From NCBI RefSeq assembly GCF_000226215.1, contig NZ_AGFF01000024.1, forward strand, positions 124,001 to 188,000: a DNA stretch of 64,000 nucleotides. Direction: 5' to 3'. The notes beneath the pieces are model-generated. The model did not search any database. It was not told the DNA's origin and saw only the letters and a program-made list of their open reading frames with translations. The translations under genes were made by a program, and so were the position numbers. Positions within the stretch are counted from its first letter, which is position 1, and every line of letters starts with the position of its first letter. The stretch is from Dietzia alimentaria 72. Its GTDB lineage: Bacteria; Actinomycetota; Actinomycetes; Mycobacteriales; Mycobacteriaceae. This document shows positions 1,647-54,447 of the stretch, in pieces.

Positions 1647-2201
1647 GTGGCTAATCACAAACGCGCCCGAGCCGGCAAAGGTGGTCGTGGCGCCGCCGCG
1701 ACCCCCGCTATAGCCGCACTAGGGGCAGCCGGGATCGAGCACACGGTGCACACCTACAACGCCTCGGGTCGCGATTTCGGAGACGAGGCGGCACGGATCA
1801 TGGGTGAGCGTCTGGGCGTGGACGCCGCCCGCGTCTTCAAGACACTGGTCCTGGCTACCGCCCGACCGCCGGCCGGGTCGAGGGCGGATTTGGCGGTAGC
1901 AGTCCTTCCCGTCACGTCGACCCTGGATCTCAAGGCCGCAGCCGCCGCACTCGACTGCGGCAAAGTCACGCTCGCCCCGGTGGACGTGGCTGAGAAAACC
2001 ACCGGCTACGTGATCGGGGGCGTCTCACCCCTCGGACAGAAGCGGCAGCTCGCCACCGTGGTGGACAGTTCCGCACTCGAGCACCCCACAGTTCTGTGCA
2101 GTGCCGGGCGACGCGGATGGGAGATCGAGCTACCGGGCCCGGATCTGGTGAGACTCACCCGCGCCCTCACGGCCCCGATCAGCGCCGGTCACGGCAGCTA
2201 A
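1647..2201 (+). CDS. ybaK: YbaK/EbsC-type Cys-tRNA(Pro) deacylase
   Basis: A 184-residue protein of the YbaK/ProX editing family, which hydrolyses cysteine (or alanine) mischarged on tRNA(Pro). Family marks are the RDFGDEAARIMG and RVFKTLVL segments (the Lys is conserved), GYVIGGVSPLGQK, and the closing RRGWEIELPGPDLVRL. A GTG at 1647 gives the normal family length; the reading frame stays open further upstream into the sigH promoter, but that part does not resemble the family. It is divergent from sigH, with about 100 bases between them, and converges on the SRAP gene. Confidence 0.88.
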   Translation: MANHKRARAGKGGRGAAATPAIAALGAAGIEHTVHTYNASGRDFGDEAARIMGERLGVDAARVFKTLVLATARPPAGSRADLAVAVLPVTSTLDLKAAAAALDCGKVTLAPVDVAEKTTGYVIGGVSPLGQKRQLATVVDSSALEHPTVLCSAGRRGWEIELPGPDLVRLTRALTAPISAGHGS

Positions 2202-2223
2202 CCGCTACCGCGGCCGGCCGACG

Positions 2224-3018
2224 TCAGAACAGCCTGCCTTCGTCGGGGTCGATCGGCCTGGTCAGCTCCGGGCCGTCATTGCGTACAGCGGAAACCGCCC
2301 GCGAGACCGGCCGGATCTGCACGGTCTCGGCCCACTCCCCCAGATCGCCACCCGCCCCGTCGACCAGGGCACGCGGATCTCGCATAACGGACGGGTCCAA
2401 CCAGTCCGTTAGTACGTCCGGGTGCACGGGCAGCGGCATCCGGTCGTGCACCCGCCGCAGTGGCCCGAGGGCCTCGGTGGTGAGCACCGTGCATGAGAGC
2501 TGGGTGACCGACTCGTCCTCCGGATCCTTCCGTGCTTCCCACAACCCGGCCATGAGCAGGCCCTGACCTTCGGGGAGGACCATGTGGAACGGCTGCTTCG
2601 GCCCGGTCTTCCGACCGGGGACCGCGGGCTCACCAGGCACCCACTCGTACCACCCGTCCATTGGGATCACGCAGTGCCTGCGTGCCACCGCGGCGCGGAA
2701 GGACGGCTTCTCGAATGCCGTCTCCACCCGGGCGTTGAACAGGTTCGGAAGCCGCGGAGAGTCCTTGACCCATGAGGGAACGAGCCCCCACCTCATGGCA
2801 CGCAGCACCCGCACAGGGTCGTCCCCGGACTCCAGCCTCTCGCGGGGAACGTCCAGGGTCAGCACGGGGATGGTGGTCGTGGGGGCGATGTTGAACCGGG
2901 GCGAACGCGGTGCCTCATCCGGCCACAGCCCCGGCGGCGGCGAAGACGCCTCGTCGACCGCGTCGAGTTCCACCGCCAGTCGGGCGGGGTCGGAGGAGAG
3001 CGAGAAGCGTCCACACAT
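2224..3018 (-). CDS. yedK: SRAP-domain DNA-protein crosslink protein (YedK/HMCES)
   Basis: A 264-residue SRAP protein. These proteins shield abasic sites in single-stranded DNA by a thiazolidine bond from the N-terminal Cys2, exposed after Met removal. Key residues are all present: Cys2 (MCGRFSL), Asn95 ([10 protein letters not shown]), Glu125 (DGWYEW) and His191 (VHDRMPLP). The start at 3018 is fixed by the need for Cys at position 2; the open frame upstream is not coding. It is divergent from aroA with 59 bases between start codons. Confidence 0.93.
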
Positions 3019-3077
3019 GGCAGACATCCTCGCACCCTGCTCAGCCATCAGCGGCCCGGATGGGAGACAATGGCCAG

Positions 3078-52221: not shown

Positions 52222-52333
52222 GCTCGTCAGGATTCCACACGGAAAATATTTCTGGACGGGTGGAACCGGATTGACACCCGGGCACGTCGAACCCTGTGAC
52301 GGGACAGAAAGAACCACTTGAGGGGACGACACC

Positions 52334-52672
52334 ATGGCTGACGGGGCGATCGACGTCCACGTAGACGGTTTACGTGAGTTGGGCACCGGATTACGGGAGC
52401 TGGGGAGCTCACTGGGAAGCGCGCTCCAGGCGGTGGACGGGCTACCCGTCGACGCCATCTCCCCGGTCGTGGGGCCGGTGGGCGCTGACTTCATGTCCGC
52501 CCTTCTGACGGCCACCGCACGTCATCGAGAGGTCCTTGCCGGGGTGGCGCGGGTGACCGACGCGGCCGGCGACCTGATCACGGAGACGGCGGGACTCTAC
52601 GAGGACACCGACACCTCGACGGCTCAGGCACTCGGCATCGCCGGCGGCCACGTCGCCGACAGGCAGGTGTGA
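52334..52672 (+). CDS. EspC-like type VII secretion substrate
   Basis: A 112-residue, helix-rich acidic protein with the layout of EspC/WXG100-like exported proteins. Two helical stretches (about 10-35 and 55-100) are joined by a short turn. Near the end it has GLYEDTDTS, a match to the YxxxD signal (Tyr89, Asp93) that T7SS substrates use for recognition; EspC-type families end similarly with Y, D and an A-rich helix. There is no Trp-x-Gly. It lies first in a block of four genes, 4 bases before the NlpC/P60 gene, with which it may pair. The ribosome binding site GAGGGG stands eight bases before ATG. Confidence 0.78.
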   Translation: MADGAIDVHVDGLRELGTGLRELGSSLGSALQAVDGLPVDAISPVVGPVGADFMSALLTATARHREVLAGVARVTDAAGDLITETAGLYEDTDTSTAQALGIAGGHVADRQV

Positions 52673-52676
52673 TCCG

Positions 52677-53807
52677 ATGATCGCCGATGCACTGGCCTAC
52701 GCCGGGCCCATCAAGCAGATCCTCGATCTGCTCTCGACCGAGGAGTTCGTCCCCGCCGAGGCGCAGAACCTCATGAAGCCCGTCAGCGACGGACTTGAAG
52801 TGGCCCAGCAGGTCGGGGCACCACTCGAGCGCCTGCTCTCGGAATCCTGGGACTCACTGGCCTCGTTGGGGGCCGCCCAGTCGATCGCCGAGGTCGGCCG
52901 GACGGTGGGTGCGCTGAGTGAATCGGCGGTGGAGATCGCGCGCGTGACCTCCGTGGCCGCTGACATCGTGGTAAGGGGGACGATCGAGGTGATAGGCATC
53001 GTGCAGCAATTCATCACGCGTGCCGCCGCGCTCGGCCCCACACTTCTGTCCCCACCTGGGCAGATCGCGCTACTGGGGCTGGCGACCGAGCATCTTGCCC
53101 GCGGCATCCAGGTGGCCGAGCGGGTCCAGCTCGAACTGCAGGCACCGACCGCCGAAATGAACGCGATCGCCTCCGGGATCCCGCCGGCCCCACGGATGCC
53201 CGGCATGCTCAGCGCCGACTCCAGCACCGGCGGTAGCGCCATCAACGCCTCGACCGTGGCCTATTCGGGATCCGGGCCGGGAGCATTCTCCGGCGACGGG
53301 GGCTCAACTGGTGGCCTCGAGGCAGGGGCCGGTGTTGGTGCCGAGGCAGGCCAGTCTTCAACTCCGGGGCCGGTGGCCTCCGGCGACGCAGGCTCCGGGG
53401 TGATCGGCAGCGGTGTCGAGGTGGTTCTGCCCGACGGGTCGGTGGCCACCGCGCCCAACGAGAACGCCGCTGGAGCGGTCCGCAACGCGCTGAGCCAGCA
53501 GGGCGTGCCCTATGTTTGGGGCGGCACCACCCCGGGTCAGGGCCTGGACTGCAGTGGTCTGACGCAGTGGGCATACCGGGATGCGGGTGTGGAGATCCCG
53601 CGACTGGCCCAGGAGCAGGGCGTGGGTGTCCAGGTGTCGCAACAGGACCTCGCGGCTGGCGATCTGCTGGTCTGGGACGGCCACGTGGCCATGTACATCG
53701 GCAATGGCCAGATCGTCGAAGCCGGGGACCCTGTGGCGGTTTCCGGCCTTCGGACCGACAATATCGGCATGTCTTTCTACGGCTTCTACCGCCCGACAGG
53801 CGGATGA
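52677..53807 (+). CDS. NlpC/P60 peptidoglycan hydrolase without signal peptide
   Basis: A 376-residue protein with three parts. Residues 1-165 are helical, with W-x-S-L (ESWDSLASL) and long Ala/Val helices; no cleavable signal peptide is visible, and the hydrophobic run near 130 is short. Residues 180-255 form a Gly/Ser/Ala-rich linker. The C-terminal NlpC/P60 domain carries Cys292 (GLDCSGLTQWAY), His336 (DGHVAMYIG) and Glu348, a spacing like that of RipA (from memory). Such enzymes cut D-Glu-mDAP bonds in peptidoglycan. Export through the type VII route, with the EspC-like partner encoded just before it, is the likely way out. Confidence 0.85.
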   Translation: MIADALAYAGPIKQILDLLSTEEFVPAEAQNLMKPVSDGLEVAQQVGAPLERLLSESWDSLASLGAAQSIAEVGRTVGALSESAVEIARVTSVAADIVVRGTIEVIGIVQQFITRAAALGPTLLSPPGQIALLGLATEHLARGIQVAERVQLELQAPTAEMNAIASGIPPAPRMPGMLSADSSTGGSAINASTVAYSGSGPGAFSGDGGSTGGLEAGAGVGAEAGQSSTPGPVASGDAGSGVIGSGVEVVLPDGSVATAPNENAAGAVRNALSQQGVPYVWGGTTPGQGLDCSGLTQWAYRDAGVEIPRLAQEQGVGVQVSQQDLAAGDLLVWDGHVAMYIGNGQIVEAGDPVAVSGLRTDNIGMSFYGFYRPTGG

Positions 53808-54070
53808 CCCCCGAATCCTGCCGTCACACCGACCCCATGACCGGCGTCGTGGCCGAGGTCGGCACTGACGGTGTCCCGGTTGGGCTGGCCCTGCCTGGCA
53901 ATCTCCTCAATCGCACGCCCTCCGAGGTCGCGCGGGCGGTGCTTCGCGCCATTACCGCGGCGGCGGGTGAGGCGCGGGAACTCCTCGAGCACATTGCCGA
54001 GGACGGCCAGTGGGGCGAAACCGACGCCTGGAACACGGACGACGACGCGCTGTACGAGTCCGTCCGGTGA
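53804..54070 (+). CDS. Small YbaB/EspL-like protein (88 aa)
   Basis: An 88-residue protein beginning at ATG in an ATGA overlap with the NlpC/P60 stop. A predicted strand pair (TGVVAEVGTDGVPVGLAL) is followed by a helix (TPSEVARAVLRAITAAAGEAREL) and an acidic tail with Trp-x7-Trp. This resembles the C-terminal half of the YbaB fold, the class to which the ESX-1 protein EspL belongs (from memory); the N-terminal helix is missing. Its role is unknown, but coupling to the hydrolase argues for a shared function. A second in-frame Met at residue 12 is an alternative start. Confidence 0.7.
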   Translation: MTPESCRHTDPMTGVVAEVGTDGVPVGLALPGNLLNRTPSEVARAVLRAITAAAGEARELLEHIAEDGQWGETDAWNTDDDALYESVR

Positions 54071-54447
54071 GCGGCGGCGGACTGGACGTCGAGGCTTTTC
54101 TCGACCGTCTGCGCGGGATCGCGGCCGAGTGGGAATCCGCCCACGATCAGCTCGAGACGCTGCGGGTGGTGGCCTCGAGCAGCGACCAGCTCGCCACCGC
54201 GACCGCGGATTCCGGCGGGGCCGTTGTGGACCTGGTGTTGGCGCCGGGTTTGCGTCGGCATGGCGCGCAGACGGTATCCGCATCCATCCTCGAAGCGACC
54301 TCCTCCGCCGTCGAACAGGCCAATGCCCGTCGGGCGGAGTTGGTCTCGGGTTCGGTCGCTCTGGCCGTGACCGGACGGAAGCGGGCCGCGGAGCACGCCG
54401 CAGGGCGGATTGCCGACGCCTCCGCGACGGGCCGTGGCACCGGCTGA
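54067..54447 (+). CDS. Small YbaB/EspL-like protein (126 aa)
   Basis: A 126-residue protein starting at a GTG that overlaps the previous stop by four bases. An N-terminal amphipathic helix (DVEAFLDRLRGIAAEWESA) is followed by strands (LATATADSGGAVVDLVLAPG) and a long C-terminal helix (TVSASILEATSSAVEQANAR), the order of a YbaB/EbfC domain. In ESX loci such proteins are dimer-forming cytosolic partners, not DNA-binding ones. With the 88-residue protein it may form a heterodimer. Confidence is limited because this rests on pattern, not on a profile search. Confidence 0.68.
   Translation: MSGGGLDVEAFLDRLRGIAAEWESAHDQLETLRVVASSSDQLATATADSGGAVVDLVLAPGLRRHGAQTVSASILEATSSAVEQANARRAELVSGSVALAVTGRKRAAEHAAGRIADASATGRGTG

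Follow-up and report, generated by a model that had tools for sequence, protein, structure and literature searches.

A four-gene unit of Dietzia alimentaria 72 as a probable ESX-4 substrate cassette with a predicted peptidoglycan endopeptidase as its cargo

The four-gene unit and its conservation

Dietzia alimentaria 72 carries a compact unit of four genes, here called A to D, on contig NZ_AGFF01000024.1 (assembly GCF_000226215.1). The unit lies within a stretch of 64,000 nucleotides (positions 124,001 to 188,000 of the contig, forward strand), which is the window referred to throughout and to which the coordinates in the feature lines belong. A encodes an EspC-like protein, B a predicted NlpC/P60 peptidoglycan endopeptidase with an N-terminal domain resembling ESX substrates, and C and D small YbaB-like proteins. 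We consider it likely that this is a co-expressed ESX-4 substrate cassette whose exported cargo is the endopeptidase. The domain make-up, the motifs and catalytic triad, the gene order, the linkage to ESX loci in relatives, the promoter type and a partial co-loss with ESX were all computed directly. Labels beginning with G, L and C followed by a number are our handles for genomes, loci and contigs. The genes, with the evidence for each in brackets (ORF, open reading frame; AF2, AlphaFold2 model), are:

52334..52672, + strand: gene A, EspC-like, 112 residues (ORF; Pfam PF10824)
52677..53807, + strand: gene B, 376 residues, N-domain, linker and predicted NlpC/P60 endopeptidase (ORF, Pfam, AF2)
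53804..54070, + strand: gene C, 88 residues, divergent YbaB-like (ORF; profile comparison)
54067..54447, + strand: gene D, 126 residues, YbaB/EspL-like (ORF; Pfam PF02575)

A first-pass annotation, made from the letters of the window, had described four genes on one strand with spacings of 4, -4 and -4 bases, and the ORF coordinates agree exactly. B and C overlap by ATGA, C and D by GTGA. The same annotation placed the unit between upp and the ortholog of Rv3311. This order is present (pmmB-upp-[unit]-Rv3311-deoA-cdd-sdhC), with neighbour names that we take from mycobacterial gene order. The Rv3311-like gene follows closely behind D and was considered as a fifth member, but it was excluded because it stayed in place when the unit moved in genome G034 (see below). 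The family-model searches that the annotation had suggested place A in EspC (37.2 bits, cut-off 23.5), B in NLPC_P60 (75.9 bits, its sole Pfam match) and D in YbaB (33.6 bits, cut-off 25.5), whereas C alone has no Pfam match.

The annotation had also suggested a search for the same gene order elsewhere, and the order is kept. In the best 80 loci of 555 relatives, taken from a scan with the B alignment, A is near B in 79 and the N-domain of B is found in 79. Two YbaB-like genes follow B in 51 loci, one in 7 and none in 22. Among the matches listed, Rhodococcus, Nocardia, Antrihabitans, Millisia and a Mycobacterium sp. have the order upp-A-B-C-D-Rv3311; Lentzea, Actinokineospora and Actinophytocola have A-B-C-D-Rv3311; and Gordonia, Williamsia and several Mycolicibacterium have A-B but neither C nor D. 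All four genes are under purifying selection. The ratio of nonsynonymous to synonymous substitution rates (dN/dS), from 11 same-genus comparisons over aligned parts only, is 0.13-0.30 for A, 0.12-0.34 for C and 0.10-0.19 for D; within B it is 0.10-0.20 for the N-domain and 0.04-0.12 for the catalytic domain.

The proteins of the unit

B is not a bare hydrolase. It consists of a WXG100/EspA-like hairpin, a disordered linker and a Cys-His-Glu endopeptidase, arranged as follows (pLDDT, predicted local distance difference test score):

52677..53174, + strand: N-terminal ESX-substrate-like domain of B, residues 1-166 (family profile, AF2)
52848..52850, + strand: codon of Trp58 at the helical turn, WDS (alignment, AF2)
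53226..53405, + strand: disordered linker, residues 184-243 (pLDDT < 50)
53415..53801, + strand: NlpC/P60 catalytic domain, residues 247-375 (Pfam, AF2)
53550..53552, + strand: codon of catalytic Cys292 (invariant, 45/45)
53682..53684, + strand: codon of catalytic His336 (invariant, 45/45)
53718..53720, + strand: codon of Glu348, third catalytic residue by analogy with RipA (invariant, 45/45)

The AF2 model of B begins with a confident hairpin (helix 26-57, turn 58-60, helix 61-124) with Trp58 at the turn; the disordered linker and a confident NlpC domain follow. A Trp stands at the turn in 78 of 80 B homologues, and in 72 of the 80 a Gly two positions later makes this WxG. When the profile of the N-domain family was compared with the PDB, EsxA and EsxB were matched with E values of 4e-4 to 1.7e-3, and all five matches with E < 0.01 were EsxA or EsxB. 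Individual B-type N-domains match Pfam WXG100 in 6 of 23 cases and EspA_EspE in 5 of 23; the window's own N-domain, taken alone, matches neither. Paralogous B-type proteins with a proline-rich leader occur at L208, L210, L211, L213 and L066. Their tails are similar, with YL followed by I-G-D/E and later by P-V-L/I-G.

The probable partner of this domain is A, of which 25 of 26 homologues match Pfam EspC. The PF10824 search misses some A genes that the A-family profile finds (e.g., in G023), and a missing PF10824 match was therefore not counted as absence of A. Against the PDB the A-family profile gives weak matches only, the best being EsxB at E 0.019. A carries a candidate secretion motif:

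52598..52612, + strand: YxxxD motif YEDTD, residues 89-93 of A (sequence)

YEDTD lies near the C-terminal end of A, as would be expected of a YxxxD/E motif after the second helix. The column is Tyr in 59 of 80 A proteins, and Asp or Glu stands at +4 in 57 of 80. In the bipartite signal described for type VII secretion systems (T7SSs), one partner carries WXG and the second carries YxxxD/E (PMC6319747; papers cited by PMC number are drawn on in excerpt unless otherwise stated). A and the N-domain of B look like the two halves of one such WxG and YxxxD targeting unit. At L062 an EspC-like domain is fused straight to NlpC/P60 (22.2 bits, just below the Pfam cut-off, and 72.8 with the A profile), and an ORF with a B-type N-domain comes after the fusion.

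The catalytic domain of B has the Cys-His-polar triad by which a domain would be assigned to NlpC/P60 (C40). Its analogues in RipA are C383, H432 and E444, residues named in the PDB titles of RipA mutants. Perhaps B is an ordinary RipA-D-type hydrolase of cell separation or growth that happens to have a helical N-domain and exits by Sec/Tat or without a leader, with A, C and D as bystanders. B does share the catalytic fold and the Cys-His-Glu triad of RipA, RipB, RipC and RipD, and its NlpC/P60 domain is related to that of RipC and RipD. However, it scores far under the cut-offs of the NCBIfam models (RipC 72.1 bits against 425, RipD 67.6 against 215, RipB 55.2 against 335 and RipA 42.7 against 625). 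RipA-D are Sec-exported and have an N-terminal signal peptide. By hydropathy and charge, with no dedicated predictor run, B has no signal-peptide-like stretch: the highest 19-residue Kyte-Doolittle value in its first 45 residues is 1.06 and their net charge is -1. This agrees with the first-pass description of a hydrolase without a signal peptide. Genome G142 retains the unit without ESX and the unit is missing from 18 of the 32 sampled genomes of genus g50 (presumably Mycobacterium), which would suit an ordinary hydrolase. Nevertheless, A and B remain together even at a new locus, and the linkage to ESX loci and the WXG and EspA profile matches also speak against it. We regard this explanation as unlikely.

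C and D appear to be related. Profiles of the two families align in hhalign at 94.6% with an E value of 6.8e-8, and a profile seeded from D-type proteins matches both slots in relatives, including the C slot of L040 and L042 from the same genus. Of 16 members of the C-slot family, 2 match Pfam YbaB, the window's C not among them, and the C-family profile finds nothing useful in the PDB. Thus the earlier impression of two small YbaB/EspL-like proteins holds, for D by Pfam and for C through its family profile. The YbaB-like protein EspH binds EspE, and YbaB-like ESX-1 proteins have been proposed as dedicated chaperones (PMC6107294); EspL and EspD have been proposed as chaperones likewise (PMC6319747). 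Because YbaB-like EspH, EspL and EspD are described in this way, C and D may be called chaperone-like by analogy. What if they were instead YbaB/EbfC nucleoid proteins controlling upp or other neighbours, so that the operon is regulatory and the hydrolase incidental? Pfam does describe YbaB as DNA-binding. However, D reaches 12.1 bits with the YbaB/EbfC equivalog TIGR00103, below its cut-off of 49.45, and C and D accompany A and B in ESX loci distant from upp. A regulatory operon is thus highly improbable.

ESX loci, promoter and co-loss

The ESX locus of the window genome lies on contig C20. It has EccB, EccC, EccD and mycosin over their cut-offs, a WXG100 pair and an EccE-like protein under its cut-off, with genes resembling truA and ribosomal genes alongside. 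The locus resembles ESX-4, a likeness that we take from the truA and ribosomal gene order. The first-pass annotation had stated that the window holds no ESX machine gene. This stands for EccB, since the genome's only match is on C20; the window was not scanned for every ESX gene.

In genus g13, eccC and the WXG100 pair flank the complete unit in 4 of 4 sampled genomes (L052, L168, L172 and L173). In G034, the only g13 genome inspected for this (L174), upp is directly beside Rv3311 and the unit is not between them. Related sets also occur in ESX surroundings. A YbaB-YbaB-EspC-B-type set stands beside EccB, EccC, EccD and mycosin at L207 (13479-16363). A set with a B-type N-domain and another tail lies near PPE and WXG100-like genes at L211, with a truA-like gene adjoining, and at L213 a B-type set is near PPE, EspG and WXG100-like genes, with an EspC match by Pfam search and less regular YbaB-like genes. 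On a plasmid of Tsukamurella tyrosinosolvens a related set (A 62.7 bits, N-domain 121 bits, two YbaB-like genes at 64 bits each) accompanies PE, PPE, EspG, two WXG100 genes and EccE. G010, which belongs to the same genus as the window genome, has L207 as a second ESX locus, and the B-type protein encoded there has a tail without a Pfam match. A candidate NlpC protein of a plasmid-borne T7SS, match H17 on a Mycobacterium paragordonae plasmid, was rejected: it lies beside a helix-turn-helix gene, and no ESX gene is annotated in the stretch shown.

Other hydrolases occupy the presumed cargo slot of the cassette elsewhere: it is NlpC/P60 in the window, a lytic transglycosylase at L209 and L055, and CHAP at L214. 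L209 (4684-6399, - strand; Antrihabitans-like G036) fuses a B-type N-domain to an SLT transglycosylase domain (41.7 bits), and this stretch has no EspC- or YbaB-like match. At L055 SLT is joined to a WXG100 domain, with an NlpC protein adjoining, about 16 kb from EccB. At L214 (3675-5159, + strand; G049) a weak B-type N-domain (17 bits) carries a CHAP domain (51.2 bits); an EspC match precedes the gene and a YbaB-like match follows it.

A promoter-like element of extracytoplasmic function (ECF) type precedes A:

52262..52288, + strand: ECF-type promoter-like element GGAACC-N17-CGTC, 45 nucleotides before the ATG of A (pattern search, relatives)

The loose pattern GGAAC-N15 to N19-CGTC is found upstream of A in 67 of 79 loci and in 27 of 1455 random windows. 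With loci sorted into Mycobacteriaceae and Pseudonocardiaceae by genus name, the strict form GGAACC-N16/17-CGTC occurs upstream of A in 66 of 69 Mycobacteriaceae loci (N16 in 63, N17 in 3). In controls it occurs in 3 of 282 windows taken ahead of five neighbouring genes, and in 0 of 71 ahead of upp. We take the element to be a SigM-type site. Most M. tuberculosis ESX-4 genes are described as SigM-regulated (PMC8092274), and in M. smegmatis SigM is said to control a cell wall hydrolase and a nuclease as well as the ESX-4 apparatus (PMC9514802, citing another paper).

Within the window genome, 41 of 51 sites were read, from a search that used N17 to N18, whereas most relatives have N16. Three of these precede A (by 45 nucleotides), the ESX-locus WXG100 pair (by 53) and a gene pair at L258 (by 62); most others read are inside coding-like sequence or ahead of unrelated genes. 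A filter for coding sequence flagged the site of A and the one on C36 for antisense ORF overlap and passed L240, L247, L251 and L257, of which L251 only is a T7SS gene. This filter is therefore not clean, and the promoter pattern of the three gene pairs is post hoc. The L258 pair (1672-3058; G000:C36:24171) consists of an unassigned 102-residue protein and then a WXG100 protein (344-residue frame, 29.3 bits) with a glycine-zipper tail. It is a candidate second ESX substrate pair of the window genome.

The L258 protein bears on another idea, that B is an antibacterial wall hydrolase which a T7SS directs at neighbouring cells and whose delivery the EspC-like partner and the chaperones serve. A second WXG100 protein with a glycine-zipper tail behind the same promoter type would fit, and Firmicutes T7SS toxins with wall targets exist, such as the lipid II phosphatase TelC (PMC6193138). 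However, no candidate immunity gene was noticed among the four genes, and the fixed locus and the low catalytic dN/dS within the genus (0.04-0.12) are unlike polymorphic toxins. We think an antibacterial role quite improbable.

Loss of ESX was compared with the state of the unit in 301 genomes at least 95% complete. EccB was missed in five. One of these, G034, is explained by a contig break, as a 533-bit EccC fragment opens its contig. In the others (G013, G142, G252 and G270) EccB is absent, and EccC and mycosin are not over cut-off either. G252 and G270, likely sister genomes, have only remnants of the module left (L164, L165). G013 is the one same-genus genome for which EccB, EccC and mycosin were all looked for and not found, and its B is shortened near the end (L167). 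About 9 kb lies there between B and C-D (approximately 5030-13773 of L167). A Fisher test of co-loss gives p 0.0022, or 0.019 with G252 and G270 as one event, in a comparison that scores G013 as broken, ignores phylogeny and for most genomes rests on EccB alone. The co-loss is partial and its statistic only suggestive, because unlike states were compared ('broken' in 4 genomes against 'ortholog absent' in 297 of unchecked intactness) and G013 was counted as broken.

A candidate ESX-4 cassette and what it may do

The first-pass proposal of a type VII cargo module with a hydrolase gains from these findings: the gene order is kept, the N-domain of B is like that of ESX substrates, and the unit and its relatives occur inside ESX loci. 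The word 'stand-alone' in that proposal was wrong, because the genome has an ESX-4-like locus and the g13 unit sits inside an ESX locus; the promoter type is also common to A and the WXG100 pair.

Several observations weigh against the cassette interpretation. The window's B has W58-D-S at the turn and not WxG, and a match to PPE41 is no better than matches to unrelated helical bundles. The L044 copy, from a small genome and the only such copy checked by hand, has Met in place of the Trp, and the ORF upstream of its B is matched by neither Pfam EspC nor the A profile. Of the 80 A proteins, 23 are without a strict YxxxD/E: in 21 the Tyr column holds Leu, Phe or Ile, and in the other 2 the Tyr is kept but Val occupies +4. 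The 22 loci with no YbaB-like gene also count here, although some of them lack it because the contig ends. The strict promoter pattern is found upstream of A in 0 of 10 Pseudonocardiaceae loci and the pattern is missing from the four g13 copies inside ESX loci; it also arises by chance, the window genome having 51 GGAACC-N17/18-CGTC sites against 23 for the reversed pattern. G142 (L162) clearly runs counter to co-loss, as it keeps all four genes without EccB, EccC or mycosin over cut-off. The shortened B of G013 may not be dead, because Cys, His and Glu are kept. Conversely, among the 297 genomes in which EccB or EccC is present, 23 have no B ortholog (called at a best E of 1.2e-60 or better, others being 9e-38 or worse). 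Eighteen of them belong to g50, of which the other 14 sampled genomes have B, and the rest are G028, G080, G032, G062 and the 7%-contaminated G294. ESX does not depend on the unit everywhere.

Under the cassette interpretation, A and B would come together in the cytosol, where the YxxxD of A and the WXG-like hairpin of B would form a bipartite export signal like that of EspC/EspA. The role of C and D would be to hold or deliver the pair, as is thought for EspD, EspH and EspL with ESX-1 substrates, and export would fall to the ESX-4 machine, whose genes lie elsewhere in the genome. Once outside, the NlpC/P60 domain on its flexible linker would be free to cleave stem peptides of peptidoglycan. 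Most likely this would open the wall locally for the assembly or passage of ESX-4, or remodel it when ESX-4 is switched on. We infer the dimerisation, the chaperoning, the export route, the wall cutting and, above all, the purpose; export of B through ESX is the best supported of these. Two purposes, helping the machine past the wall and remodelling in general while ESX-4 is on, appear about equally probable.

The nearest known systems are EspA/EspC/EspD and EspE/EspF/EspH, which likewise have a small YxxxD partner, a larger partner of WxG type (WDS in the window's B), YbaB-like helpers and a position distant from the machine genes. Both the distal location of espACD and the chaperones of YbaB type have been described (PMC6319747, PMC6107294). 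Unlike these sets, the unit has two YbaB-like genes and its B ends in a predicted peptidoglycan endopeptidase. In addition, the only ESX of the window genome looks like ESX-4 and the unit occurs well beyond mycobacteria, unlike the ESX-1 EspA/EspC sets.

A wall hydrolase tied to a type VII system has a possible analogue in EssH of Staphylococcus aureus. EssH is a CHAP enzyme needed for T7SSb secretion; it has a signal peptide, exits by Sec and is stated not to be a T7SSb substrate (PMC13059805). In contrast, B has NlpC/P60 instead of CHAP and no signal-like stretch, and it looks like a substrate. NLP/P60 enzymes are also mentioned in association with plasmid-borne mycobacterial T7SS clusters (pRAW; PMC13059805). 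In Corynebacterium glutamicum, which has four NlpC/P60 genes, disrupting cg0784 is reported to have caused no cell-separation phenotype (PMC9897464). The local ortholog of B is presumably cg0784. A possible relative of the unit is the NlpC protein near an EspC-like gene (25-34 bits) at L223-L226, with a weak YbaB-like gene (19-20 bits) in 3 of the 4. By eye and from gene order, we take these loci to be the mycobacterial whiB5/Rv0024 locus (Rv0023-Rv0024), and, unlike the unit, none of them matches the B-type N-domain. Regulation of sigM, esx-2 and esx-4 has been attributed to whiB5 (PMC7020754).

EspC/EspA pairs, YbaB-like chaperones and NlpC/P60 enzymes are already known. Full-text searches of open-access literature, which leaves most subscription papers outside, gave no description of the three combined in a conserved ESX-linked hydrolase cassette. 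The main text of a paper on ESX-3 and ESX-4 of M. abscessus (PMC11791044) does not mention NlpC, hydrolase, peptidase, EspC or YbaB.

A broader idea, to which we give slightly less than an even chance, is that an actinobacterial T7SS cassette exists (an EspC-like protein, a WXG-domain protein and YbaB-like helpers) whose cargo slot is often a peptidoglycan hydrolase, and that wall cutting under a SigM-type switch is an ancestral job of ESX-4. The unit bears on what ESX-4, the presumed ancestral ESX, exports and on how T7SSa substrates cross peptidoglycan. A substrate-like wall hydrolase at one locus across many genera of Mycobacteriales, with an apparently shared promoter, is a direct and testable candidate. 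An ESX machine may send out its own wall cutter. If this is true, an exported hydrolase of its own would be the T7SSa answer to the passage of the machine or its products through the wall.

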